Source: a virus. Taken from it: 46,422 nucleotides of DNA. Positions 2,278-46,351 of the stretch are shown here, piece by piece. Both the position numbers and the translations under genes were made by a program. The stretch's first letter is position 1. Each line of letters starts with the position of its first letter. The notes beneath the pieces are model-generated. The model was not told the origin of the DNA. It saw only the letters and a list, made by a program, of their open reading frames with translations, and searched no databases. The stretch spans positions 1 to 46,422 of IMG/VR virus record IMGVR_UViG_3300012001_000015; one strand, written 5' to 3'.

Positions 2278-2947
2278 TTTTGGTCCTATGGTTGATCGCC
2301 CGGCTCAGTGCGCCGCGCAGTTGAATCAGGTCAGACAATTCCTTAGGTAAGTTATGCCTGGTGTTGCGCCGCATGTTGTCGGCCAGGCTGATGCACTCCA
2401 CGCGATCGAGCGTGATCTCCTCGAGCACGCTGGTCCGCATGCCTGGCTTGAACACGACGATGTGCTTAGGAGGTAGCGGGCCGTTGGTCTCGATCCACAC
2501 CAGCTCGTGCACGCCGCGCCAGCGCTTGCTATTACTTCCCTTGCCGTTGCCGATCTTGCGTTGCAGTGTGCCGTCTTTGGTGATGCGGAAGCTGCCAATC
2601 GCATTGGTGTTGTGTGGCATCTGGCCCGGCTGGAACCTGGTCTCCGGCGAGCGGCCGCCGGCAGTGAAGTGGCTGCCCGTATTCCAGCTGACGTGTCCTG
2701 GCAAGAAGCGGCACGCCGCGCCAACCTGGTCGCCGCGCCGCAGTCGACAAGCATCGGGCGAGGCGAGGTATTCGGGCGACTTCTTCAGGCCAAGCCTGGC
2801 GGCTCGCTGGTACACCGTTGTGGCCGTTTTGCTCATCACGCGGGCAAGATCGGCGGTCTTCGTGTCCGCGTACTGCTCGCGCAGGATCTGCAGCTGTTCC
2901 GGCGTCCATTTCGCGCGTGGGGCGAGGATGCCGCGGGATTTGGTCAT
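2267..2947 (-). CDS. HNH endonuclease with N-terminal helix-turn-helix
   Basis: 226 residues. The N-terminus (KWTPEQLQILREQYADT to VYQRAARLGL, ~13-55) looks like a MYB/HTH DNA-binding helix set. The C-terminal half has the HNH/NUMOD arrangement: RFQPGQMPHN (~105), a WRGVHELVW segment (~143) and a late DRVECISLADNMRRNTRHNLP segment. This is the architecture of free-standing HNH nucleases found in phages, either homing-type or DNA-metabolism nucleases. It overlaps the methyltransferase stop/start by ATGA and has GAGGG just before its ATG, so it is translated with the methyltransferase. Confidence 0.85.
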   Translation of the reverse strand: MTKSRGILAPRAKWTPEQLQILREQYADTKTADLARVMSKTATTVYQRAARLGLKKSPEYLASPDACRLRRGDQVGAACRFLPGHVSWNTGSHFTAGGRSPETRFQPGQMPHNTNAIGSFRITKDGTLQRKIGNGKGSNSKRWRGVHELVWIETNGPLPPKHIVVFKPGMRTSVLEEITLDRVECISLADNMRRNTRHNLPKELSDLIQLRGALSRAINHRTKNEQ

Positions 2948-4839
2948 GCTGCCCTCGCCATCTCAAGCTCATGCGTGCAGTTGACCCGGATCAGGGCGAT
3001 CGCTGGCGGCGGCGAGACGCTGTTGCCGATCATGCTCACTTGGGCGCTGCCAGACAGACGTTTGGTAACAGACTTGCCGCGCTTGTTCACGCTGGTGTAC
3101 CAGGGGTCCAGAATGTAGCTGCGCCGAAATCCTTGGGCGGTGGCCAGCTCACGCGGTACGAGCATGCGCAACCCGATGTCGACCACCTCCATGATTTCGC
3201 CGTGAATAGTCACCAGCTCGGGGCGCTCAACGCCTGCCAGGCTCGGGCAGTTGTCCCACAAGAATTGGCGGATCTGCTGCCGTTTCGCCTCTGACTCTGG
3301 CGCGCGTGCGATGGTGGTGCGTACCTCGCCGTGATGTTGTCCGCCGGCGCTGATGGTCGACAAAGGCGAGCCTGTATCAGCTGCGTTACTGGTGCCGCGC
3401 AGTTTGATTAGGTTGCTGGTGACAAGCGCGTGCCGGTTCTCGGTCACAATCGTATTCAGAGGCTTGGCCACGTCCCATGCCGCGCCGTCGCCGCTGCTCC
3501 GGTTGTCGATGCCAACCAGGTGCGCCGTGATCAGGGAGTTGTGGTCCACTGTCGTGACGGTCGGCATTGGAGCTTCTAGGCTGGCGCCGACGACGCCCTG
3601 ATAGTGTTTGGCCAGGTAGGCGCAGGTAACGCCGATGCGATCCTTGGTCACGATCGTTGGGACCGGCGCTTCTAAGGATACATTCTGGCTGCCGCCGGAA
3701 TAATATTGAACCATCGAGGCAACCACCAGCGCGATTTCACCGCGATTGGCGCAAGTAATCGTCGGCAATGGTGCGGCCGGGTCACTGGTCCGGTCGCTGC
3801 CCTGGTGGGTCAGCGGCACGAAGATCGGGGCGACCAGCGCTGCACCATTGCCACCAGCCATAACCGTCGTCAGCGGATCGTTGATGTCGCGCACGCCGGC
3901 GCCCCATCGTTTTGCGCCAGACGGTGATGTTTCTCCGTGGGCGCACTCGACAATGAACGGGCTCGCCGCATCCTTGACATACTTCTCGTAGCCCTTGCCA
4001 ACCCGGCGCAATGTCGCCGGAGCCAATGGTTTCTTTCGCCCGAAGATCGACCGGCATGGGATGGACCAGTCGATGCAGTCTGCCGCCCGCATGAATGGTT
4101 TCAGCTTGCCGGATTTCACCTCGTTTGATTTAGGATCGCCATGGGTAGGCGCAGGCCAGACAATCGGCCGCCCGTCGCGCCGCATCACCATGAACAGCCG
4201 CTTGCGGATCGTTGGAGCGCCATAGTCGCAGGCCCGCAGGATATTCCACTCAACCTTGTAACCAAGACCCGTATGCAAACGATGAATCGGGAAGTCTCCC
4301 CCTAGAGTTTCATGGATTTCCTGCAGGTCGGGGTGATCCTTCGGGATGCCGGTCGACATCGCCTTTACAAAGGCATCGAAGGTTCGTCCCTTGAATTCCT
4401 TGATCGGACGTCCGTTCCCGTCAAGCGGTCCCCAGCCTAGAAACTCTTCGACATTTTCAAGAAAAATAAGTCGAGGCGCCTGCATGGCAGCCCACTTCAA
4501 GGTAACCCAGGCCAGCCCACGCATTTTCTGGCTCAGTAGGTTGCCGCCCTTTGCTTTGGAAAAATGCGTGCAAGTCGGAGAAAACCAGGCCACACCAATC
4601 GGCTGCTGCTTTGTGACGAAGCCAGGATGAATCAGGAACACATCTTCTTGATAGTGCTTGGTGGTCGGGTGGTTGGCCGCGTGCATGCACAATGCCGGTC
4701 CGTTATGGTTGATCGCAATATCTGGCTCGCGGCCGAGCGCGATGGCGAGCGCTTCGCTGGCGCCACCCCCGCCGGCGAAGTTATCTATGATGAGTTCGTC
4801 ACGCAGGCCGAGCGGAAGGGTGAATAAGTCGCGCTTCAT
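2944..4839 (-). CDS. dcm: DNA (cytosine-5-)-methyltransferase with repeated central domain
   Basis: 631-residue C5 cytosine methyltransferase. Motif I FAGGGGAS is at 21-28, the catalytic Cys at ~90 in SPTCTHFS (replacing the common PPCQ), ENV at ~128, TIRKRLF resembles motif VIII, and MIGNSVSPPPA near the C-terminus is the motif X region. Between about 310 and 520 the target-recognition part holds about six degenerate repeats, each with a P-x-x-T-I/V turn (PLTTV, PLPTI, PVPTI, PMPTV, PLNTI, PLSTI) roughly 40-45 residues apart. It could protect phage DNA from restriction or mark it. Its start overlaps the stop of the DGR reverse transcriptase by ATGA, an unusual tight coupling. Confidence 0.93.
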   Translation of the reverse strand: MKRDLFTLPLGLRDELIIDNFAGGGGASEALAIALGREPDIAINHNGPALCMHAANHPTTKHYQEDVFLIHPGFVTKQQPIGVAWFSPTCTHFSKAKGGNLLSQKMRGLAWVTLKWAAMQAPRLIFLENVEEFLGWGPLDGNGRPIKEFKGRTFDAFVKAMSTGIPKDHPDLQEIHETLGGDFPIHRLHTGLGYKVEWNILRACDYGAPTIRKRLFMVMRRDGRPIVWPAPTHGDPKSNEVKSGKLKPFMRAADCIDWSIPCRSIFGRKKPLAPATLRRVGKGYEKYVKDAASPFIVECAHGETSPSGAKRWGAGVRDINDPLTTVMAGGNGAALVAPIFVPLTHQGSDRTSDPAAPLPTITCANRGEIALVVASMVQYYSGGSQNVSLEAPVPTIVTKDRIGVTCAYLAKHYQGVVGASLEAPMPTVTTVDHNSLITAHLVGIDNRSSGDGAAWDVAKPLNTIVTENRHALVTSNLIKLRGTSNAADTGSPLSTISAGGQHHGEVRTTIARAPESEAKRQQIRQFLWDNCPSLAGVERPELVTIHGEIMEVVDIGLRMLVPRELATAQGFRRSYILDPWYTSVNKRGKSVTKRLSGSAQVSMIGNSVSPPPAIALIRVNCTHELEMARAA

Positions 4840-5978
4840 AGTGGTTTCCGGTAGGTTTTGGTGAATGTGCTATTGACCGAGTGCCCACGCCGCAGCACCG
4901 CCTTTGCTACCAGCACACGGTCGGCGTGGCTATGGGGCGCCTGGCGCAGCAAGCCGAAGTAACTGTTGGCTGCGGTGAAGACGTCGGCAGCGGGCATGCT
5001 TCCGATCCGCTTGATTGCCGTGCGCACGGTGCGCGGGCGTGTCCTGGTGAACCATGGCTTGATGACGTGACCGACGAAGTCGACGCCGCGGTCGACCGGC
5101 TGCAATATCGTTTTGCTTGGGTTCAGCGTGGCATGCAACGTGGCCGGCACAAAGGTCTCGATGGCGGCCAGCGCGGCGTTGAGCCATTGCGGTGATTCAT
5201 GCAGCAAAATGAAGTCGTCGACGTAGCGGATGTAATGCCGGGCCCGCAGCTGGTGCTTGGCGTATTGGTCGAGCGCATCGAGGTAGATATTCGCGAAGAA
5301 CTGTGACGACAGGTTGCCGATCGGCAGACCCAAATGCGCCGGCTGGTTGATTAGCCGCTTGTGCGGCGGTACCAGGGCGATCAGTGCCGATGCGCCACGC
5401 AGCTCGTAATTCTGGCGCGGGTCGTGAAACAGGATCGTTTCCGTCAGGCGCAGCCACCAGGGTTCGGTGACGCGGGCGGCGATCTGCTCGCGCAGCACGG
5501 TCTTGTCGACGCTAACGAAAAAATTGGCGAGATCGCATTTCAGGTACCAGATCGGCTTGGTCCAGTTCTGGCTGGCGCTACGGATCTTCGCTTCCAGCCG
5601 TTGCGCTGCATACAGCGTGCCGCGGCCCGGAATGCAGGCGCAGGTGTCGGCGATGAAGGATGCGTAAAAGCGCGGCGCGATCCGGTTGTAGAGCAGGTGG
5701 TGCACGACGCGATCGCGGAAGTCGGCCGCCCAGACTTCGCGCGGCTTGGGCCGGGTGACGAGAAAGCAGATCGAACGGCCGGGCGTATAGGTGCCGTCCT
5801 GCAGCTCGTCATGCAATGCGATCAGATTGCGCTCAAGCTGTTGCTCGAAGGCGAGGGCGCTTGGGGTATTGCGTTTGCTCCGGCGGCAGTCATGGTAGGC
5901 CTGCGCCAGTTCGGTAAAAGAAAATTCAGCATGTGCATCATCGGATTGATCTGCGGACGGCACGAGCGCGACCTTCAT
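4836..5978 (-). CDS. DGR reverse transcriptase
   Basis: Copies the template-repeat RNA into adenine-mutagenised cDNA used to overwrite the variable repeats. In a 380-residue product, motif A is LKCDLANFF (Asp ~149), the DGR-specific motif 4 is IGNLSSQ (220-226) in place of the retroviral/intron QG-type motif, and the active site YVDD is at 252-255. There is no endonuclease or maturase domain, as expected for DGR enzymes. The N-terminal FSFTELAQAYHDCRRSKR segment is also family-like. The frame is open further upstream through the template repeat, but that part is noncoding by analogy. Candidate starts are the ATG at 5978, which lies inside the template repeat, or a GTG at 5963 preceded by AAGG. 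The stop overlaps dcm by ATGA. Confidence 0.95.
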   Translation of the reverse strand: MKVALVPSADQSDDAHAEFSFTELAQAYHDCRRSKRNTPSALAFEQQLERNLIALHDELQDGTYTPGRSICFLVTRPKPREVWAADFRDRVVHHLLYNRIAPRFYASFIADTCACIPGRGTLYAAQRLEAKIRSASQNWTKPIWYLKCDLANFFVSVDKTVLREQIAARVTEPWWLRLTETILFHDPRQNYELRGASALIALVPPHKRLINQPAHLGLPIGNLSSQFFANIYLDALDQYAKHQLRARHYIRYVDDFILLHESPQWLNAALAAIETFVPATLHATLNPSKTILQPVDRGVDFVGHVIKPWFTRTRPRTVRTAIKRIGSMPAADVFTAANSYFGLLRQAPHSHADRVLVAKAVLRRGHSVNSTFTKTYRKPL

Positions 5979-6056
5979 ACGTCTTGTGGTTGTTGTTCTG
6001 GTTGCCATTGTTGAAGTTCTGATTCCAGGCGTACGAGTCGTTGGCCGCGTTCTGCG
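5951..6056 (-). repeat. DGR template repeat (TR)
   Basis: 106-bp invariant donor of the retroelement. On the minus strand it is rich in AAC and AAT codons in the register of the targets, and would read through residues such as NQNFNNGNQNNNHK. Those adenines are exactly where the three variable repeats differ. The 27 bases at its 3' end (5951-5977) are identical in TR and all three VRs, despite containing three adenines on the coding strand, so this segment is the likely homing-initiation region. The TR 3' end overlaps the ATG candidate start of the reverse transcriptase. Right limit 6056 is where identity to VR1 and VR2 ends. Confidence 0.95.
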
Positions 6057-6235
6057 GTATGTCGTGCTATCTACGTCGCCGCGCCGAAAGCAAAGCCGAT
6101 CAGCGGGGTAACTGCGCCAGACCTGCCGGCATGGGCCGGCGGTATCTGCGGTGCGCATGGCGGTGGCCCGTTGCATTGATGCGGGCCAGCGGCACGACCA
6201 GATAAAAAATCGCTCTGTCACGATGACCTTGGTCA
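6057..6235 (-). other. Noncoding stretch between avd and TR (probable TR-RNA 5' part)
   Basis: 179 bases without a convincing gene between the Avd stop and the TR. Two structured elements are visible: a hairpin of two GCCGGC arms (6125-6130 and 6135-6140) and a near-perfect palindrome GATGACCTTGGTCATC (6222-6237) that overlaps the avd stop codon. In BPP-1 the RNA needed for cDNA synthesis extends well beyond the TR into the flanks, so this region may belong to the functional template RNA. That role is inferred by analogy. Confidence 0.5.
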
Positions 6236-6589
6236 TCATGCGGCTGGCGTCGATGTTGCTTTGCGCCATCCATTGGCCTGCTTGCCGATTGCATCGGTTA
6301 GCAAAACTGCTGTGGCGTACTGGCTGATGGAAATGAATCTCATATCCTTGGCTAGCCGGATCAGCAGTTCTGCTTCCATCACCTTTTCCAGCAACTCGCC
6401 CAGGTGCGGGGCTTTGTCGCGCGCGGCGTTGGCTTTGGCTACCAGCAGGGTGATGCGCACGCACGCGTCTTGAATCGCGCCGCCGATCGATGCCTTGACC
6501 GAACGAGGGAAATTCTTGACGAGCGCGCTGGCGACCTGCAGCAGCTCATAGGACGATTTGTAGATCGGCAGATTGGTATGGATAGCCAT
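6236..6589 (-). CDS. avd: DGR accessory variability determinant (Avd), four-helix bundle
   Basis: 117 residues. The opening IHTNLPIYKSSYELLQV and the following LVKNFPRSVKASIGGAIQDA are the hallmarks of the Avd/S23-like four-helix-bundle family, followed by ITLLVAKANAARDKAPHLGELLEKVMEAELLIRLAKDM. In BPP-1 the homologous pentameric protein binds the reverse transcriptase and template RNA and is required for cDNA synthesis. Placement between target 1 and the TR is the classical DGR order. No strong Shine-Dalgarno is seen before the ATG at 6589. It starts 55 bases after the target 1 stop, past hairpin 1. Confidence 0.93.
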   Translation of the reverse strand: MAIHTNLPIYKSSYELLQVASALVKNFPRSVKASIGGAIQDACVRITLLVAKANAARDKAPHLGELLEKVMEAELLIRLAKDMRFISISQYATAVLLTDAIGKQANGWRKATSTPAA

Positions 6590-6617
6590 GCTGAATGTAA
6601 AAGGAAAAATTTTCGAT

Positions 6618-6632
6618 CCGGGCTATGCCCGG
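6618..6632 (-). repeat. Hairpin downstream of VR1
   Basis: Perfect 6-bp stem with a 3-base loop (CCGGGC, TAT, GCCCGG on the plus strand), 12 bases after the target 1 stop and 31 bases after the 3' end of VR1. The same structure with different stem bases follows VR2 and VR3, with the surrounding AT-rich sequence also conserved. DNA hairpins downstream of VR are known to promote target recognition in the BPP-1 DGR. Confidence 0.8.
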
Positions 6633-6644
6633 AAAATTGTTGAA

Positions 6645-7172
6645 TTATTCAATGATCAAGATTCTGCGGACGGCACGAGCGCGACCTTCATACGTCTTGC
6701 GGTAGTAGCTCTGGCCGCCACCGAAGAAGTACTGATACCAGGCGCACGAGACGTTGGCCGCGTTCTGCGTGGACGTCCAGTACCATGCGTCTTTATCGAA
6801 GCCCGCTGACGCATTGATGTGGATCAGGCGCGCTTCGCGGCGATCCGGCAGCGACCAGTCGGTAAAGCCTTCGATTTTCTTTTTCGCCTGCTCGCCGGCT
6901 GCCTGCCAATTTGCGCCGACGATTTCATGCTCGTCTGTCGCGCGAATCAGATGGTAGTCAGGCGCTCCGTTTTCTCCACCGATGATGCCAACGTAGACGC
7001 CGCCTTGGCCGTTCCAGCCTTCTCCGATGCGCGGCGCGATCATGTTGTAGGCCGGGTGGCGTGGTGCGCGATTGCAGGTATCCAGCTGCGTGGACAGCCA
7101 GCGCTGCAGCAGCTGGTCCTTGGGAATATTTAGCGTGGCGCCATCGATGGCGAATTGAACGTTTTCAGACAC
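6645..7172 (-). CDS. DGR target protein 1 (DUF1566-like, C-type-lectin fold)
   Basis: 175 residues from a GTG start with GGAG eight bases upstream. The N-terminal and middle part (PRIGEGWN, then PDYHLIRATDEHE and FTDWSLPDRREARLIH) and the AWYWTSTQ motif are typical of DUF1566-type C-type-lectin-like domains. The last ~35 residues are encoded by VR1 and end in RRILIIE. Fourteen TR adenines are changed, putting Tyr, Phe, Gly and Ser at template Asn positions. No signal peptide or membrane segment is visible, so it is either cytoplasmic, released on lysis, or virion-associated. Its core is homologous to target 3, not to the N-terminus of target 2. The ligand is unknown. Confidence 0.93.
   Translation of the reverse strand: MSENVQFAIDGATLNIPKDQLLQRWLSTQLDTCNRAPRHPAYNMIAPRIGEGWNGQGGVYVGIIGGENGAPDYHLIRATDEHEIVGANWQAAGEQAKKKIEGFTDWSLPDRREARLIHINASAGFDKDAWYWTSTQNAANVSCAWYQYFFGGGQSYYRKTYEGRARAVRRILIIE
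6664..6769 (-). repeat. DGR variable repeat 1 (VR1)
   Basis: Aligns without gaps to the TR over 106 bases. I count 14 differences, all at TR positions that are A on the coding strand (T on the plus strand): eight became C and six became A as read on the plus strand. No change is seen at any template G, C or T. This establishes target 1 as an active or recently active DGR recipient. Confidence 0.96.
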
Positions 7173-7197
7173 GGCGTGATCTCCAAAAATTTGCGAT

Positions 7198-7212
7198 CCG
7201 CGCTGCGCGCGG
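7198..7212 (-). repeat. Hairpin downstream of VR2
   Basis: Six-bp stem CCGCGC / GCGCGG around a TGC loop (plus strand), 11 bases after the target 2 stop and 30 bases after the VR2 3' end. It differs in stem sequence from hairpin 1 but keeps pairing, length and distance, which is compensatory conservation of structure. Confidence 0.8.
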
Positions 7213-7223
7213 AAATTATTAAA

Positions 7224-7829
7224 TTACTCAATGACCAATAATCTGCGGACGGCACGAGCGCGACCTTCAAACGCCTTGCGGTCGTCGTTCTGGTAGCCAC
7301 TGTCGAAGTCCTGACCCCAGGCGCACGAGACGTCGGCCGCGCCCTGCGTGGACGTCCAGTACCAGCTCGTCTCCAGCGCCTCCGGTCCGCCTTCTTGAAA
7401 CGCCGCGGCGCCGGTTTGCGGGGGGCATTGTTCGGTGTACGGATAGCCGGGCGGCACGCTGCTCGGGTTGTCGCCGCGATAGGTGTAATTTTCTTCAGCG
7501 CTTGGTTTGAAATGGCGATAGGCCAGCTCGACCGCATCGCGCGCGCCGATGTGCCAGTCGTCGAAGCCGCCGGTGCGCAGCGCCCGCGCGGCGATCGCCA
7601 GTTCGCTGCCGGCAGCTGCCATCGCATCCGTGTTGGCGAGACCGTCGATGTAGCTGCATGCACCTGCGACCGCATTGGTCGATTTGTTCCAGGCGCCAGC
7701 GATCTCGCCTTCCTTGCCGGCGACGACGTTGGCGTACAGTTCGCCATCGAGACGGAACAGGCCGCCGAAGTAGCCGCCGGCAAGCGGTGCGCACAGCTCT
7801 GGCAATTCGTTAATGTGGATGTGCTTCAT
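7224..7829 (-). CDS. DGR target protein 2 (DUF1566-like, C-type-lectin fold)
   Basis: 201 residues from the ATG at 7829, chosen over an in-frame ATG at 7865 because AGGGAG lies nine bases upstream and the longer start would overlap the previous gene stop. The N-terminal ~60 residues (MKHIHINELPELCAPLAGG, then YFGGLFRLDGELYANVVAG) differ from the other targets. The middle DDWHIGARDAVELAYRHF and YRGDNPSSVPPGYPYT and the SWYWTSTQ motif are recognisable DUF1566-family features. The VR2-encoded C-terminus carries 16 adenine substitutions and ends RRLLVIE. No export signal is visible. The different N-terminus suggests a different partner or location from targets 1 and 3. Confidence 0.93.
   Translation of the reverse strand: MKHIHINELPELCAPLAGGYFGGLFRLDGELYANVVAGKEGEIAGAWNKSTNAVAGACSYIDGLANTDAMAAAGSELAIAARALRTGGFDDWHIGARDAVELAYRHFKPSAEENYTYRGDNPSSVPPGYPYTEQCPPQTGAAAFQEGGPEALETSWYWTSTQGAADVSCAWGQDFDSGYQNDDRKAFEGRARAVRRLLVIE
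7243..7348 (-). repeat. DGR variable repeat 2 (VR2)
   Basis: Gapless 106-base match to the TR with 16 differences, all at template adenines. It is the most diverged of the three VRs and the only one with changes reaching the Thr and Tyr codons near the 3' constant part (Thr to Ala, Tyr to Phe). Confidence 0.96.
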
Positions 7830-7861
7830 TGGTATCGCTCCCTTGGTTGCTGTGATGGCGC

Positions 7862-8266
7862 TCATGCGCCGACTTCGATGCAGAACGCGGATACGTCTGC
7901 GACTGACTGCTTGAATTTGTTCATTGGAACGGTGCCGATCTGGTAGTCGAGTCCGCCGGCGGTCTGGCGCAGGATCGCGGCTTCGGCATCCGATACGCCA
8001 ACCTTGTTGACCCGGTCGTAGCGGTCGCAGATGGCCAGCATGGCGTCGCTGGCCAGATCGAGACTGGCGGCGGTCGACCCGGCGCGCCGTAGCGCAGCCA
8101 ACATCTTCGACAGCTGGTTATAGGTCTCGGCCGACGGTGCCGCGATCAGTGCTTCGGTCGCCAAGTGCAGCTCCAGCGCGAGGCTATCGCGGGTAGCGGC
8201 CATCATCGGGATGGCGACCGGGCGCGGACGGTAGGCCTTGTTGCGCGGCTTCTTGGAGCGTGCCAT
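7862..8266 (-). CDS. Conserved phage protein of unknown function
   Basis: 134 residues with a basic N-terminus (MARSKKPRNKAYRPRPVAIP) followed by a mostly helical region (LALELHLATEALIAAPSAETYNQLSKMLAALRRAG). Proteins with this opening are frequent in Burkholderiales siphovirus and myovirus early regions, but none has a function known to me. It starts one base after the stop of the DUF3310 gene. The basic N-terminus could contact nucleic acid, which is speculation. Confidence 0.75.
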   Translation of the reverse strand: MARSKKPRNKAYRPRPVAIPMMAATRDSLALELHLATEALIAAPSAETYNQLSKMLAALRRAGSTAASLDLASDAMLAICDRYDRVNKVGVSDAEAAILRQTAGGLDYQIGTVPMNKFKQSVADVSAFCIEVGA

Positions 8267-8267
8267 G

Positions 8268-8516
8268 TCAGTCGTGGTCCAAGATGGTGACGATCTTGCT
8301 GTAGGCCGCTTCGCGTTTGGCGATCTCCCGATCCAGATACCAGCGGGCCTTTTTTAAGTCGCTGAGTGGTGCACCTTTTTCGTCCGCGCGCCACACGTAC
8401 TTGACCACGTTGCCGACGTTGAATGACATGTGTTCCGTGATCTGGATGCACTCGACGCCGCTCGGATGGCTGGTGTAGTGCTTCGGGTGATTCACCGGAT
8501 CGCTTGCGGTGCTCAT
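8268..8516 (-). CDS. DUF3310 family protein (SaV-like)
   Basis: 82 residues. The VNHPKHYTSHPSGVECIQIT opening, NVVKYVWRADEKGAPLSDLKKARWYLDREI and the size are diagnostic of the DUF3310 family, found widely in phages. Some members are annotated as nucleotide kinases, but I see no P-loop here, so I make no enzymatic claim. The ATG at 8516 overlaps the upstream gene's stop (ATGA). Confidence 0.88.
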   Translation of the reverse strand: MSTASDPVNHPKHYTSHPSGVECIQITEHMSFNVGNVVKYVWRADEKGAPLSDLKKARWYLDREIAKREAAYSKIVTILDHD

Positions 8517-8710
8517 AGCGCGGCCTCGGTGTACCGTGTGTCGCGCTTGAGCTCGTGCATCGGGATCGTGGCCGGCGTGCCGGCCACGTGACCGTGAATC
8601 TGAACGATGCCGGTCTGCGCGCCATTGACGAGGCACGTGCGGATTGCCTTGAGCTTGCCGAGCGGGTACCCGTTGTGGGTGACGTCGTCGCCTGGTTGAA
8701 TGCAGTGCAT
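8513..8710 (-). CDS. Small phage protein, unknown function
   Basis: 65 residues (MHCIQPGDDVTHNGYPLGKL start), beta-rich in appearance with several Gly and Val turns, resembling a small SH3-like barrel by pattern only. It has a perfect AAGGAG six bases before the ATG and overlaps DUF3310 by ATGA, which makes it a convincing gene. No function is recognised. Confidence 0.75.
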   Translation of the reverse strand: MHCIQPGDDVTHNGYPLGKLKAIRTCLVNGAQTGIVQIHGHVAGTPATIPMHELKRDTRYTEAAL

Positions 8711-8755
8711 AAATTCTCCTTGTGTGTCTGGTGCTGCCAGCCATTCGCCGGATCG

Positions 8756-8983
8756 TTACGTCTGTTTCGATCTGGCCTTTAACATCGCATCGGCATACTG
8801 GTAACACTCGCGAGCCGTGAAGCTCTTATCTGGCCCGATATCCCAATCAACTCCGTTTGACGCAAGCATTCCCTGGAGAGAAGCCATTGCAAATCGATCG
8901 CGCAACGTCGCGTGCATCGGTTGGCAGTCGTCGGATTGCAAAGATTCGTCCCTGCGTTTCGGGAATCTGACTGGGGTTACCAT
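8756..8983 (-). CDS. Small phage protein, unknown function
   Basis: 75 residues. The segment LRDRFAMASLQGMLAS followed later by ECYQYADAMLKAR is a pattern shared by many small early phage proteins, which I recognise but cannot assign a role. It starts six bases downstream of the DUF2303 stop, with no clear Shine-Dalgarno, so reinitiation from the upstream gene is likely. The paralogous idea that it binds a host or phage partner has no direct support. Confidence 0.7.
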   Translation of the reverse strand: MVTPVRFPKRRDESLQSDDCQPMHATLRDRFAMASLQGMLASNGVDWDIGPDKSFTARECYQYADAMLKARSKQT

Positions 8984-8989
8984 CGAGGG

Positions 8990-9814
8990 TTAGGGCTTAC
9001 CGATCAACACCGTGTAGCCGCTTTCCTTGGCCTTTTCGACATAGGCCTTGAAGGCGTCTTCGATCGCGTTTTCCGGTCGGTCCAGCTCGTACCAGAACTT
9101 GACCTTGCCGGCGCTTAGGCGGTACTTGAGGCGCGCCTTGATCCTGTAGCCGTCGCCGTTTTTAAACAGGCGCAGGCCGATCGAGAATTCGCGCGGGATT
9201 TCAATCGACCCAGCGCCGGCGCGGGCCTCAATGTTTTCGGTGTAAGTCAGCTGCACCTGGCCGTTGTCGAGGCGGCGCGAGCTGCCGAAGTTGACCTCGG
9301 TCTTGGCTTGAAGCGTCAAGGCGACGGCGAGCAGGACGTCACCGGATGGATCGACGACGTCGGCGATGTTGTCTTCCAAGAAAACCGCAAAGTCTTCCTG
9401 TTCTTTCGGCTGCTTGTTGTTGCGGATCCAGGTGTCGAGCTCGCGGCTCAGTTCCGCGGTGTAGACGGCGCGGTGGTCGCGCCAGCCGGGATAGTCGACG
9501 CTGCGTTGGTCGTTGAAGACGGCGGTCAGGGTGCGTGCATCCGGGTCGGCATACATGTAGCCAATATCTTCAGACTTCTGGTGCTGCGCGTACTCGATAA
9601 AGGACCCGACGTCGCGCAGCTGCACTATGCCGCGTTTGCGGTTGGGATGATCTTGGGCCGCTTCGATGGCGCCGGTGATGTCGACGTGCTGGAAGCCCTG
9701 CGGCAGCACCAGGTGCGTAGTGCCTTCGTGTGTCTGGATGGATTGCGCGGCAACGGCCAGTGCGCCGATGCGCTGCAGCGCGGAATCGTTCAGGTCGATG
9801 TTTTCTTGTCCCAC
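8990..9814 (-). CDS. DUF2303 (YfdQ-like) phage protein
   Basis: 274 residues, GTG start with AGAGG about six bases upstream. The segments GTTHLVLPQGFQHVDITG, GSFIEYAQHQKSED and YADPDARTLTAVFND, followed by the long DTWIRNNKQPKEQEDFAVFLEDNIADVV region, match the DUF2303 family (E. coli prophage YfdQ). Function is unknown; members occur in early or recombination-linked operons. It is soluble with no membrane segment, and its start lies one base beyond the stop of the 113-residue gene upstream, typical of this pair. Confidence 0.88.
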   Translation of the reverse strand: MGQENIDLNDSALQRIGALAVAAQSIQTHEGTTHLVLPQGFQHVDITGAIEAAQDHPNRKRGIVQLRDVGSFIEYAQHQKSEDIGYMYADPDARTLTAVFNDQRSVDYPGWRDHRAVYTAELSRELDTWIRNNKQPKEQEDFAVFLEDNIADVVDPSGDVLLAVALTLQAKTEVNFGSSRRLDNGQVQLTYTENIEARAGAGSIEIPREFSIGLRLFKNGDGYRIKARLKYRLSAGKVKFWYELDRPENAIEDAFKAYVEKAKESGYTVLIGKP

Positions 9815-9815
9815 G

Positions 9816-10157
9816 TTATGCCTCTTTGAATTTGGATGGTTGTTTGGCTGCCGCGTCGCGCAGTTCCAGGCTGGCTTGACGCGGATGGTTGCGCGACAGG
9901 TCGTTATCGTCGGTCAGCCAGAAGAAGTCCTCGCCGCGCTCAGGTTTCGGCAAATCAATCGTGATGGCGTCCGAGATCACGACCTTGTCGACGTCGCCGC
10001 CGCGCGAGGCCGGCTTGATTTTGATCTTCAGGCTGATGGCGCCACCCTTGCCGGTTTCCTTGACCTTGGCGATCAGCTCGGCCAACTGGATCGACAGCTC
10101 GGCGTGGGCGCGGCCGTCGCGCAGGTCTTGCAGGAATACTGCAAATGCTTTACTCAC
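9816..10157 (-). CDS. Conserved phage protein preceding DUF2303
   Basis: 113 residues from a GTG start with AAGGAG six bases upstream (an ATG two bases earlier runs straight into TGA). The N-terminal helix (AFAVFLQDLRDGRAHAELSIQLAELIAKVKETG) is followed by a beta segment (GAISLKIKIKPASRGG) and FFWLTDDNDLSRNHPRQ. It is a recurrent neighbour of DUF2303 in phages. No function is recognised. Confidence 0.78.
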   Translation of the reverse strand: MSKAFAVFLQDLRDGRAHAELSIQLAELIAKVKETGKGGAISLKIKIKPASRGGDVDKVVISDAITIDLPKPERGEDFFWLTDDNDLSRNHPRQASLELRDAAAKQPSKFKEA

Positions 10158-10195
10158 ATGGTTCTCCTTGGGGTGCGCTCACTGAAAAAACGCGA

Positions 10196-10210
10196 TCGCG
10201 CTGCGCGCGA
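10196..10210 (-). repeat. Hairpin downstream of VR3
   Basis: Six-bp stem (TCGCGC / GCGCGA) around TGC, 11 bases after the target 3 stop and 30 bases after the VR3 3' end. The outer pair is T-A here and C-G in the other two hairpins, again keeping the pairing. Confidence 0.78.
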
Positions 10211-10221
10211 AAATTGTTAAA

Positions 10222-10614
10222 TTACTGAATGATTAATAATCTGCGGACGGCACGAGCGCGACCTTCATACGTCTTGAGGCTGATGTTCTGGCCGCCATTG
10301 CTGAAGTCCTGACCCCAGGCGTACGAGTCGTTGGCCGCGTCCTGCTCACCGGACCAGTACCAGCGCGGCTCAAACAGTTCCGGTACCTGGCCGAACAAGA
10401 TCGCTTGTTCTTTGCGCAGCGGCAGTGAGCAGCCGATTTCGTCAGCCCACTGCATCGCATCGTTCCGGCTGATGTCTTTCTTTTGGTCCGGATGGACGAG
10501 CAGGTAATAGTCCGGCTCGCCGGCGTTTCCTCTGACGATTCCCGCGTAGATGCAGTGATCTTGTTCCGGCCATGCGGCACCGATACGTGGTGGCGTCAGT
10601 TGTGTGTTTTCCAT
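10222..10614 (-). CDS. DGR target protein 3 (DUF1566-like, C-type-lectin fold)
   Basis: 130 residues, ATG with AAGGA about six bases upstream. The shortest target: PPRIGAAWPEQDHCIYAGI, PDYYLLVHPDQKKD, SLPLRKEQAILF and RWYWSGEQ align with the body of target 1 without its N-terminal 40 residues. The VR3-encoded C-terminus has 10 adenine substitutions and ends RRLLIIQ. It lies 2.4 kb upstream of target 2, separated by seven ordinary phage genes, so the retroelement acts on a distant target in the same operon. No secretion signal is seen. Confidence 0.93.
   Translation of the reverse strand: MENTQLTPPRIGAAWPEQDHCIYAGIVRGNAGEPDYYLLVHPDQKKDISRNDAMQWADEIGCSLPLRKEQAILFGQVPELFEPRWYWSGEQDAANDSYAWGQDFSNGGQNISLKTYEGRARAVRRLLIIQ
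10241..10345 (-). repeat. DGR variable repeat 3 (VR3)
   Basis: Gapless match to the TR over 105 bases with 10 differences, all at template adenines. It is the VR closest to the template, so it is either the most recently rewritten or the least often selected. Confidence 0.96.
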
Positions 10615-11785: not shown

Positions 11786-11841
11786 TACAACCACAGGTTA
11801 CAGCACGAAATTTAATAATGCAACTTAAAGTTGTAATGCAA
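11786..11841 (-). promoter_or_regulatory. OL-like operator and leftward early promoter
   Basis: Two 15-bp dyads of the form RCAAC-N5-GTTRY lie at 11787-11801 (ACAAC CACAG GTTAC) and 11820-11834 (GCAAC TTAAA GTTGT), centres 33 bp apart. On the minus strand a candidate -35 TTGCAT (11836-11841) and -10 TTATTA (11813-11818) have a 17-bp spacer that contains the second dyad, so a bound repressor would block the promoter. The 17-bp word at 11786-11802 recurs inverted in OR at 13940-13956. Seen: repeats and symmetry. Inferred: binding by the CI-like protein at 13164-13871. Confidence 0.65.
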
Positions 11842-12431: not shown

Positions 12432-12452
12432 ACTTCACCGCTTCGGTGAAGT
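12432..12452 (-). terminator. Hairpin at the end of the BRCT-protein gene
   Basis: Nine-bp perfect stem ACTTCACCG / CGGTGAAGT with a 3-base loop, overlapping the stop codon of the leftward BRCT-domain gene. There is no U-tract on either side, so it is a weak or protein-assisted terminator, or an mRNA-stabilising hairpin. Confidence 0.4.
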
Positions 12453-13141
12453 CATAATTTTGTCACGTGCTCATACCAATGTTGCTCACCGATGATGGCA
12501 ATTTTTGCGCCGCCATCATTGTATTCAATAGCCTTTTCGATCTTGCGGCCATGCGTGGAGTGTTGCCAGTCTTTGCTGCCAATTTCGCCAATCACCAGGT
12601 AAGTGAGCTTTTTGGTAATGGTGCTTGCAGGAACGCCGCCCTTGGCAATAATCTGATTCTCGCACCAGCTGCGGCTGCCGGACTGAAATTTTCCGGTGAA
12701 GCAAAACGACGTGGAATTGAAGGTGATGATGGGCGCTGGGCTGGTGTATGGGAGCGCCGTGCTGTTGCTCGCTTCCCCATATTGCGGGGCGGTGTTGCCG
12801 CCGATAGTGGCAAGCAGTAGGTCCATGATCTCGCGTTCTTCATCAAGATCCATATGCCCATCTTCCATGGCTGCTACCAGACGCGGGTAAATTGCCTTGG
12901 CGGGCCATAGACCGCACACTTTTTTATTGGCCGTCATCCAGCGCAACAAAAATTCGACTTCGCTTTGATCCACCATACCATCGGCCATGATGCCTTTTAT
13001 TATCCCAATGAGCTCATCAATTTGGCGGTCAAGCACTGCTTCAGATCGAAATGCCTGAACAAGTGGCTGTCCATTCGGGTCATTTGTAGTGACTTCTGCA
13101 TTTTTCACGATCTTTTGGCGAACATTGCTAAACCAATTCAT
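12452..13141 (-). CDS. TerB-like plus BRCT domain protein
   Basis: 229 residues from the ATG at 13141 (GAGGAGA six bases upstream). The first half (LDRQIDELIGIIKGIMADG to EREIMDLLLATIGG, ~40-120) is an all-helical TerB-like domain. The second half (NSTSFCFTGKFQSGSRSW, KKLTYLVIGEIGS, then GGAKIAIIGEQHWYEHV, ~140-229) is a BRCT domain of the DNA ligase type. BRCT domains bind DNA ends or phosphopeptides. The gene lies 22 bases downstream of the CI-like repressor on the same strand and is therefore likely expressed in the lysogen. Possible roles are DNA-damage sensing or phage exclusion; neither is proven. Confidence 0.85.
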   Translation of the reverse strand: MNWFSNVRQKIVKNAEVTTNDPNGQPLVQAFRSEAVLDRQIDELIGIIKGIMADGMVDQSEVEFLLRWMTANKKVCGLWPAKAIYPRLVAAMEDGHMDLDEEREIMDLLLATIGGNTAPQYGEASNSTALPYTSPAPIITFNSTSFCFTGKFQSGSRSWCENQIIAKGGVPASTITKKLTYLVIGEIGSKDWQHSTHGRKIEKAIEYNDGGAKIAIIGEQHWYEHVTKL

Positions 13142-13163
13142 GGCTTCTCCTCGGTGAATTTCG

Positions 13164-13871
13164 TTATTCGTCGGTCCACTTGCCGATGACCACGCCACAG
13201 ATCGTCGCGTTGCCATTGATCTCAATGATCTTGTCCGGCCATGCTGGGTTGAGGGCTTTCAGATACTTCTTGTCGCCCTCGATGACCAGCTGCTTGAAGG
13301 TGGCTTCGTTGCTTTCGTCCAGGCGCACGATGATGCGCGATCCGTTTTCGGGATGGCGCTCCGGATCGACGAAAATCACGTCGCCATCGGAATAGCTGTA
13401 CTTTCCACCGAGGTTCTCCATGCTGACACCACGCACGCGCAGCGCGAATGTGCGCTTGCTGTGGCTCTTGGGGCAGGGCAGCCAATTGGAGGCAAGGCCG
13501 GGCTCGTAAGGATCGGATACCAGCGCCCAGGTGCCCGCCGTGATCCATGAAATGACCGGCACGTCGCCGTGCAGGACGGGGCCGGACGTCACGTTATAAG
13601 TTGCTTTCGATTGACCGAGTGCCAGCGGATCTTCGATGAATTTGGCTTGCACATCAATGACGTTCTCGTCGGTGCCAAATTTCAGGTAGGCGGGAGATAC
13701 CGCTAAGAATTCTGCAGCCTTGAGCAAATTATCACCTCGTGGTTCCGACTCGCCAGCAACCCATTTCTGAACGGCTTGCGGGCTAACGCCAACAAATCGA
13801 GCCAATTCAGACTGGTTGCCACCATTTTTTCGTTGAAGCGCTTCTGTAATGCGATCACTCATTATTTTCAT
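13164..13871 (-). CDS. CI-like repressor (HTH and S24 autopeptidase)
   Basis: Lysogeny repressor. The N-terminal HTH is NQSELARFVGVSPQAVQKW (~19-37). The C-terminal LexA/CI peptidase domain has a cleavage site TAG (Ala112-Gly113), nucleophile Ser150 in RGVSMENL and Lys193 in EATFKQLV. Induction by RecA-stimulated self-cleavage is expected for this architecture. It starts at the ATG at 13871 or 13862, adjacent to three operator-like dyads, and is transcribed away from cro. The OL and OR sites suggest it controls both the leftward operon with the DGR and the rightward replication operon. Confidence 0.93.
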   Translation of the reverse strand: MKIMSDRITEALQRKNGGNQSELARFVGVSPQAVQKWVAGESEPRGDNLLKAAEFLAVSPAYLKFGTDENVIDVQAKFIEDPLALGQSKATYNVTSGPVLHGDVPVISWITAGTWALVSDPYEPGLASNWLPCPKSHSKRTFALRVRGVSMENLGGKYSYSDGDVIFVDPERHPENGSRIIVRLDESNEATFKQLVIEGDKKYLKALNPAWPDKIIEINGNATICGVVIGKWTDE

Positions 13872-13882
13872 CCATTAACTTT

Positions 13883-13956
13883 ACAACTGCTTGTTGTATT
13901 AAGCATTGCAATTATTTGTTGTAGTTATGCCGCTTTAGTTGTAACCTGTGGTTGTA
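13883..13956. promoter_or_regulatory. OR-like operator region between cI and cro
   Basis: Three 15-bp dyads: 13883-13897 (ACAAC TGCTT GTTGT, perfect palindromic arms), 13908-13922 (GCAAT TATTT GTTGT) and 13941-13955 (GTAAC CTGTG GTTGT). The last two have centres 33 bp apart, the same spacing as in OL, and the 17-bp word 13940-13956 is identical (inverted) to 11786-11802. The first site sits at the cI start, fitting autoregulation. Individual promoters cannot be placed with confidence. Confidence 0.7.
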
Positions 13957-13973: not shown

Positions 13974-14312
13974 ATGGAAACAGGAATTGAAAAGGCTGTT
14001 CGTCTTGCCGGTAATCAAACCGCGCTGGCGAACCTTGTCGGCGTCACTCCTCAAGCAATACAGAAATGGGTTGCTCAAGGAAAGCCGTCTCCAGAGGGAT
14101 GCAAGCAAATTGAAATTTGCTTGAATGGCCAAGTTACTCGGCATGAGTTGGACCCGGATCTATTTGGTCCTCTTCCTATTGAGTCAACCCGCACGCCAAC
14201 CGAAGAAGCCGAACCCCAAAAGCAAAACCGCGATCACGACATGCCAGAACTGTTGCGCGAGACGCGGATTGGAACGCGGGAAGTTTTGCCAATTGACGGA
14301 ATGATGGAATGA
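13974..14312 (+). CDS. Cro/YdaS-like HTH regulator
   Basis: 112 residues. The helix-turn-helix segment KAVRLAGNQTALANLVGVTP followed by QAIQKWVAQGKPSPEGC is typical of YdaS/Cro-type proteins, with a polar C-terminal tail rich in Glu and Pro. First gene to the right of the OR region with AAGG upstream of the ATG. It would act opposite to the CI-like repressor in the lytic switch. It ends two bases before the convergent stop of the next leftward gene. Confidence 0.88.
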   Translation: METGIEKAVRLAGNQTALANLVGVTPQAIQKWVAQGKPSPEGCKQIEICLNGQVTRHELDPDLFGPLPIESTRTPTEEAEPQKQNRDHDMPELLRETRIGTREVLPIDGMME

Positions 14313-45555: not shown

Positions 45556-46351
45556 CGATCGCAGATACGAATTGCCCGACCGGGCAATAAAAAGACGGAG
45601 CGCCTGGCCGATCGCCTTATTCCGCAGTTTCCACCGCATACCTGCTATGTCGAAGTGTTCGCCGGCGGTGCGGCACTCTATTTTCTACGGCCGCCAGCTG
45701 ATGTCGAGGTCATCAATGATATTAACGGCGACCTGGTCAACCTATATCGTGTGGTAAAGAATCACCTCGAGGAGTTCGTGAGGCAGTTCAAATACGCGCT
45801 GTCGAGCCGCGAGGTGTTCAAATGGGTTGCAGGACACGCCATCAGAGACCCTGACCGACATCCAGCGCGCGGCACGGTTTTTTTACCTGCAGCAGCACTG
45901 CTTTGGCGGTAAGGTCGACGGTCAGACGTGGGGCACAGCGACCACTGCACCGCCGGTCAATTTGCTTCGGATCGAGGAGAATCTATCGGCGGCACATTTG
46001 CGGCTGTCTCGCGCGTTTATCGAGAATATGGACTGGGCCAAATGCATCGAGCGGTACGACCGGCCGCATACGTTCTTTTACCTCGATCCGCCATATTGGG
46101 AGACCGCCGGGTACGGAGTCGACTTCGGTCTGGAGCAATACGAAAAAATGGCCGGCATGATGCGCGCGCTGAAGGGTAAGGCGATCATCAGCCTGAATGA
46201 TCATCCGGATATTCGCCGCGCTTTTGACGGATTCCAGATGGACGCGGTGCCGATTCAATACACCGTCGGCGGGGGTGGCAAGGGCGCGGATCGGATGGAG
46301 CTGATCATCTACAGCTGGGATCGTGCCTCGGAACCGGCCGGTCTGTTTTAG
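45556..46351 (+). pseudogene. Dam-like adenine-N6 methyltransferase, frameshifted and without a normal start
   Basis: Two frames together make one phage adenine methyltransferase: the first (to ~45826) has VFAGGAALYFLRPPADVEVI (SAM-binding) and YALSSREVFKW, the second (from 45827) continues QDTPSETLTDIQRAARFFYL and keeps catalytic DPPYWE (~46085). The frames join at a GGG run at 45824-45826, where one extra G would explain the shift. The 5' part runs into the Rz stop with no ATG (homologues begin near the PGNKKTERLADRLIPQF segment). It is either an inactivated gene or a sequencing error. Confidence 0.8.

Follow-up and report, generated by a model that had tools for sequence, protein, structure and literature searches.

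A three-target diversity-generating retroelement in the early operon of a temperate phage, with a structured RNA upstream of its template repeat

The DNA analysed here at its full length of 46,422 nucleotides (nt) (IMG/VR virus record IMGVR_UViG_3300012001_000015, referred to as the window) carries a diversity-generating retroelement (DGR) that very probably works by adenine-mutagenic retrohoming, and that is a distinct variant by its placement, by the number and kind of its targets and by the layout of its RNA. A previous sequence-only reading had claimed a complete DGR with three targets in a prophage early operon, and this is borne out when the parts are considered one by one: the reverse transcriptase (RT; bRT), the accessory protein Avd, a single template repeat (TR) and its three variable repeats (VRs) are all confirmed (Table 1), and the cassette lies between the repressor and the integrase. 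The bRT retains the IGNLSSQ and YVDD motifs mentioned in that reading, and both bRT and Avd are identified by Pfam and PHROG matches.

Scanning of the window detects four copies of a repeat of about 107 nt, all on the minus strand; a fourth VR is not found in the whole window on either strand. With the TR taken as the template, VR1, VR2 and VR3 have 14, 16 and 10 mismatches, respectively, and 40/40 are located on template adenines, as in the earlier count by eye, for which the probability is about 1e-20 under random placement of mismatches over the TR. Where VR1 and VR3 show a single difference at an outer end, this marks the repeat boundary and is not counted as a VR change. The mismatches sit in the first and second codon positions and change 11 (VR1), 14 (VR2) and 8 (VR3) amino acids with respect to the TR. 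At least one VR is changed at 24 of the 34 TR adenines, and the TR permits 21 variable residues, corresponding to about 1e19 proteins per target.

Table 1. Positions of the DGR components, of the associated sequence elements and of neighbouring genes in the window.
Feature	Position	Strand	Properties
Template repeat (TR)	5949-6056	minus	108 nt, 34 adenines
VR1	6663-6769	minus	14 mismatches vs TR, 14/14 at template A
VR2	7241-7348	minus	16 mismatches vs TR, 16/16 at template A
VR3	10239-10345	minus	10 mismatches vs TR, 10/10 at template A
DGR reverse transcriptase (bRT)	4836-6032	minus	RVT_1 E 2.5e-14; PHROG 1423 reverse transcriptase E 1.5e-120
Avd accessory protein	6236-6589	minus	Pfam bAvd E 8.6e-14; PHROG 3206 Avd E 1.5e-31
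Target gene 1, with VR1	6645-7172	minus	175 residues; Lcl_C E 1.7e-10; AlphaFold2 pLDDT 91
Target gene 2, with VR2	7224-7865	minus	201-213 residues; PHROG 4245 E 2.6e-26; weak Lcl_C
Target gene 3, with VR3	10222-10614	minus	130 residues; weak Lcl_C and PHROG 4245
RT-15 structured RNA (Rfam RF03018)	6055-6252	minus	directly 5' of TR; 169.7 bits, cut-off 82
AT-rich 8-nt repeat element after VR1, before the hairpin	6634-6662	minus	statistics over 55 VR flanks
AT-rich 8-nt repeat element after VR2	7214-7240	minus	
AT-rich 8-nt repeat element after VR3	10211-10238	minus	
GC hairpin 3' of VR1	6617-6633	minus	7-bp stem TCCGGGC, loop ATA
GC hairpin 3' of VR2	7197-7213	minus	7-bp stem TCCGCGC, loop GCA
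GC hairpin 3' of VR3	10196-10210	minus	6-bp stem TCGCGC, loop GCA
Two putative CI/Cro-type operator sites, OL-like	11786-11802, 11819-11835		head of leftward operon; pattern TRYAAYNNNNNRTTRYA
Three putative operator sites, OR-like	13882-13898, 13907-13923, 13940-13956		between cI and cro; pattern TRYAAYNNNNNRTTRYA
Integrase, operon end	146-1243	minus	PHROG 1 E 4.4e-38
C5 cytosine methyltransferase, next operon gene after RT	2944-4839	minus	Pfam/PHROG
CI-like repressor (helix-turn-helix and peptidase S24)	13164-13871	minus	Pfam/PHROG

The adenine bias is also observed in the relatives of this element. Among annotated phages, a tblastn search with the RT returns nine records whose identity is 61-69%, after which the values drop below 40%, and scans of IMG/VR and genome contigs add 22 further loci; a DNA search of E. 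coli genomes detects no related RT. The TR and VRs were identified by script in every related locus. Over the 66 TR-VR pairs of the window and 29 related loci, scored symmetrically, 807 of the 845 mismatches are at template adenines, a rate that is slightly favoured by the A-mismatch-tolerant scan from which the candidate pairs came. The window and the clade both lie above the limit of at least 75% of mismatches at template adenines that is used for DGRs (PMC8144416). In the comparison of closely related cassettes, the VR differences between Haboob and phPA-G (cassette 97% shared) are opposite template adenines in 25/25 cases, whereas the TR has 0/104 differences and the other aligned sequence differs by 2.6%. 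The same is seen for Magia and QDWS (23/23 VR differences at template adenines; two TR differences, or 2.2%, against 12% elsewhere), and in two contigs of one phage (L016 and L017) the one base that differs in 5.5 kb is a template-adenine site of a VR. The sequence-only reading had named VR differences outside the template adenines, or a TR as variable as the VRs, as the patterns in independent sequences that would speak against it; the 25/25 and 23/23 counts in the relatives are the reverse of this. More distant pairs have a few non-A VR differences, as ordinary divergence would give.

The RTs of these relatives form one group when compared with seven other phage DGR RTs (tree support 87/92, moderate). 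Judged from the sequences, this RT clade belongs to temperate phages of Proteobacteria whose DGRs mostly have two or three targets, and three targets are therefore a lineage trait and not unique to the window. Three VRs are present in the window, L012, Magia, QDWS, Cruim01, L018, L021, L023 and L028, and the remaining related loci, some of them on short contigs, have one or two. Magia, QDWS (Shewanella), Pseudomonas Haboob, phPA-G, Cruim01, LPPA56 and SC_8 share the RT clade and the early-operon lectin targets. The DGR of Magia and two of its targets were already noted by its authors (PMC7883833); its third target (gene 46) is identified here, and third targets are also found in QDWS and Cruim01. 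The cassettes of Magia (Burkholderia) and QDWS are 88% identical (L007 7531-10091 and L008 1571-4132), which suggests that the cassette moves between phages, being transferred as a module.

Two observations concern the relatives as records. The otherwise nearly identical contigs L013 and L029 differ by a 23-nt deletion located exactly inside a VR (L013 8878-8900), which is likely to be assembly trouble at a polymorphic VR and was left unused. The entries OK094664.1 and OP650936.1 have the same length (47902) and the same match, with Shewanella baltica and a Tenericutes bacterium as the respective hosts; probably they are one phage, with one host label being wrong.

The targets had been described as DUF1566-like proteins without export signals, one of them encoded 2.4 kb away from the other two, and these features are retained on closer analysis. 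Lcl_C/DUF1566 is matched by 3/3 targets, once above and twice below the Pfam curated cut-off, and target 3, which is 43% identical to target 1 in alignments, is encoded in the same operon about 2.4 kb upstream of targets 1 and 2. The AlphaFold2 model of target 1 is of high confidence, as judged by the predicted local distance difference test (pLDDT). Its best match in the PDB is 8q4e, the C-terminal domain of Legionella Lcl (TM-score 0.72 by target length), with C-type lectins as the next matches, and the Lcl domain is itself C-type-lectin-like (PMC11162425). The C-type-lectin fold is predicted by the model for target 1 and by sequence similarity for targets 2 and 3, the model of target 2 being unusable. 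The VRs are at the 3' ends of the target genes and encode the C-termini. The targets of the window and of its relatives are bare domains of roughly 116-220 residues, without a fibre or anchoring part. When considering N-terminal hydrophobicity, no signal-peptide-like or transmembrane stretch is found in the three targets of the window, the best 12-residue hydrophobic mean being 1.0 as compared with 2.5 for OmpA; a few relatives reach 2.1. Defence-system models give only generic RT and methyltransferase matches, and zero matches on the targets.

The cassette is part of a leftward operon between cI and the integrase gene, together with genes for DUF2303, a PHROG 204 protein and the C5 methyltransferase. 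The pattern TRYAAYNNNNNRTTRYA occurs exactly 5 times in the window, with 0.10 occurrences expected, an expectation that is slightly too favourable, because repeats already detected in the window served to define the pattern. The sites at 11786 and 11819 immediately precede the first leftward gene, and the site at 13940 is the exact reverse complement of that at 11786. Lambda-like phages have their OL and OR operators laid out in this way, and putative CI control of the leftward operon, assumed in the sequence-only reading, is in this way well supported; expression would follow repressor release, on induction or infection. In the seven complete or nearly complete genomes that were compared (the window, Magia, QDWS, SC_8, LPPA56, Cruim01 from 5.7 kb onwards, and Haboob, whose VRs are those of L009), every VR is located between repressor and integrase and zero in late genes; scanning of the window and these six relatives finds no tail or late-gene VR, and the rest of the Haboob genome has no further VR. 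The tails differ: the window and Magia encode a sheath, QDWS has baseplate genes, and Haboob and Cruim01 have long non-contractile tails. The relatives encode their own tail fibre or tip genes.

The VRs are also distinguished by their 3' flanks. A block of at least 2 units of the AT-rich repeat is present in 33/55 VR flanks, compared with 7% in shuffles, and the spacing by count is 8 nt (9 nt is not upheld). This block is not found after the TR, the TR flanks being at background. In the window, GC hairpins occur about 28 nt past the VRs, not adjacent to them (3/3 VRs), and the stem sequence differs between VR1 and VR2 with the pairing retained; the window TR has no such hairpin. As a universal VR mark the GC hairpin was rejected: it is seen in the window and several relatives only and goes undetected in other members of the clade, and the repeat block is the more general of the two. 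In BPP-1, a hairpin 3' of the VR is required for homing (PMC3240598), and by analogy the absence of block and hairpin at the TR would shield the TR from homing.

The visible structured RNA of the window DGR is, by sequence, upstream of the TR. RT-15 ends where the TR begins, in the same position in 16/16 relatives scanned, and compensatory changes on both sides are observed in 27/44 predicted pairs (24 sequences). The Rfam Phage_DGR model has no match in the window, whereas in the BPP-1 control it matches downstream of the TR, within the 144-nt spacer before brt, where the RNA recruits bRT-Avd and primes complementary DNA (cDNA) synthesis (PMC12875486). A structured spacer RNA of the BPP-1 type downstream of the TR is thus not seen here, RT-15 being present upstream instead. 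The conserved RT sequence starts about 28 nt past the TR end, compared with 184 nt in BPP-1 and about 136-320 nt in BPP-1, VP58.5, ARM81mr, Bise, Lagaffe and ACA1 taken together; in Bacuni F2 this gap is short. The space for a BPP-1 priming spacer is lacking, because the TR runs almost straight into the RT gene, and conservation at synonymous sites downstream of the TR is not raised. Perhaps the 5' structured RNA also primes the cDNA. With RT-15 upstream and the downstream spacer missing, the need for the BPP-1 spacer in cDNA priming can be tested directly. In the literature library that was searched, no paper links RT-15 to DGRs; this Rfam family, named merely 'RT', is now tied to a DGR template RNA. 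Under strict filters RT-15 was detected in 1/369 genomes of one class, that one being the centre genome of the sample.

The conserved bRT sequence begins near 5930, and the candidate starts are ATG at 6158, 6008 and 5978 and GTG at 5963; the start codon is uncertain because the RT frame stays open through the TR and beyond. In 23/24 loci this frame (6158-4836) is open across the whole TR and on through the 3' part (one half) of RT-15, with a conserved in-frame ATG inside RT-15 in 18/24. It may be that the RT is translated with a threonine-rich tail encoded by the TR. The open frame is not accepted as proof of translation from inside RT-15, because the frames of BPP-1, VP58.5, ARM81mr, Lagaffe and ACA1 are also open through the TR.

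In the mechanism proposed here, the transcript of the leftward operon would carry the RT-15 RNA and the TR, and bRT and Avd would copy the TR into cDNA, inserting bases at random opposite adenines. The cDNA would then replace the 3' ends of the three target genes, each VR being marked by a GTCCGCAG-type end, by the AT-rich 8-nt repeat block and, in the window, by the GC hairpin, with the TR lacking block and hairpin. Three small proteins of the C-type-lectin fold would in this way be rewritten at up to 21 residues each.

Phage DGRs are usually seen as a means of switching tropism through tail proteins, and most of their targets are predicted tail proteins (PMC8144416), a contrast with the window that had been drawn in the sequence-only reading and that holds. 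Because the targets are never in late genes and the cassette occurs in phages with different tails, binding inside the cell is the most likely function, and not that of a tail receptor-binding protein. Judged from location, there is about an even chance that the targets are variable binders within the cell, acting either at an early stage of infection or in lysogens; proteins of the host or of competing phages are examples of what they might bind. Our judgement ranks virion or adhesion proteins second and action at the lysogen surface or after release third. Several points weigh against these conclusions. The intracellular role is deduced from location and from the lack of export signals and of late-gene positions, and single-domain lectins could still become part of virions or be set free by lysis; in Bacteroides phages with DUF1566 targets, VR changes accompany host-range differences, favouring adhesion (PMC8143477). 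The operator sites are proposed from symmetry and position, with binding being presumed, and no second copy of the window's own phage was found that would bear on the activity of its DGR.

It is less probable that this is an ordinary receptor-binding DGR, oddly placed, whose three lectins are virion or adhesion proteins for the host surface. The tail targets of most phage DGRs and the Bacteroides correlation agree with this, as does the nearest solved structure to target 1, which is an adhesin domain; it is opposed by the lack of any VR in or beside late genes in the seven genomes, by the occurrence of contractile and long non-contractile tails among relatives that each have their own fibre or tip genes, and by the bare-domain architecture of the targets. 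Temperate phages often encode conversion genes, and the lectins might be secreted or released, acting at the lysogen surface or after lysis. The binding of extracellular glycans by the Legionella Lcl domain (PMC11162425) is in line with such a role, which is nevertheless unlikely when considering that the window's targets have no signal-peptide-like or transmembrane stretch and that low expression in the lysogen is expected because CI-type operators head the operon. Decay of the DGR into fossil repeats whose diversification has ceased is very improbable: the window copy is known from one sequence, but its open reading frames are intact, the TR/VR mismatches are at A only with no decay elsewhere, the RT motifs are retained and the relatives have A-only VR divergence; presumably the window's own copy is active.

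A conserved clade that diversifies only stand-alone early-operon lectins, across phages with different tails, misfits the tropism account and suggests that hypermutation is put to some other use. As a tentative proposal, hypermutation could serve an early intracellular contest in which two or three antibody-like lectins, expressed along with the remaining early genes, bind variable host-defence or rival-phage proteins, with the RT-recruiting RNA 5' of the TR, reversed with respect to BPP-1. For Magia, whose DGR was known, a host-range use has been suggested (PMC7883833). The CI/Cro-type operators and the A-confined VR variation with a stable TR in independent relatives are evidence for two points that the sequence-only reading had to assume.

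The comparison with other systems shows both conserved and divergent features. BPP-1 (mtd-avd-TR-brt) likewise has RT, Avd, a TR between avd and RT, A-only mismatches and a C-terminal VR with a hairpin downstream (PMC3240598), but a single tail target beside late genes in place of three early-operon targets; judged by gene position alone, the window targets are probably not tail receptor-binding proteins. RT-15 is present in Magia and its kin wherever scanned. The Bacuni phages F1-F4 of Bacteroides uniformis also have DUF1566-type targets and two VRs, one of them remote (PMC8143477), and in F2 the TR is likewise close to the RT; their RTs are about 35% identical, fall outside the RT-15 group in the tree, and no RT-15 match is found. 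The DGRs of the VHML/VP58.5 type and of the Faecalibacterium Lagaffe type share the avd-TR-RT order, and unlike the window they have the target beside tail genes and a longer TR-RT spacing.

Outside the cassette, cI and the divergent cro-like gene contain a 41-nt inverted stretch of 80% identity (13755-13795 and 14035-14075), which encodes the same helix-turn-helix segment (VGVSPQAVQKWV and VGVTPQAIQKWV), and the sequences suggest that these regulators are oppositely oriented paralogues. The gene beside cI (12452-13150) matches PHROG 3989, weakly resembles NAD-dependent DNA ligase in a BRCT-like region and has a weak PADLOC candidate match (PDC-S48). At the right end, beyond the lysis genes, a reading of the translation indicates a possible Dam-like adenine methyltransferase frame (45827-46351).

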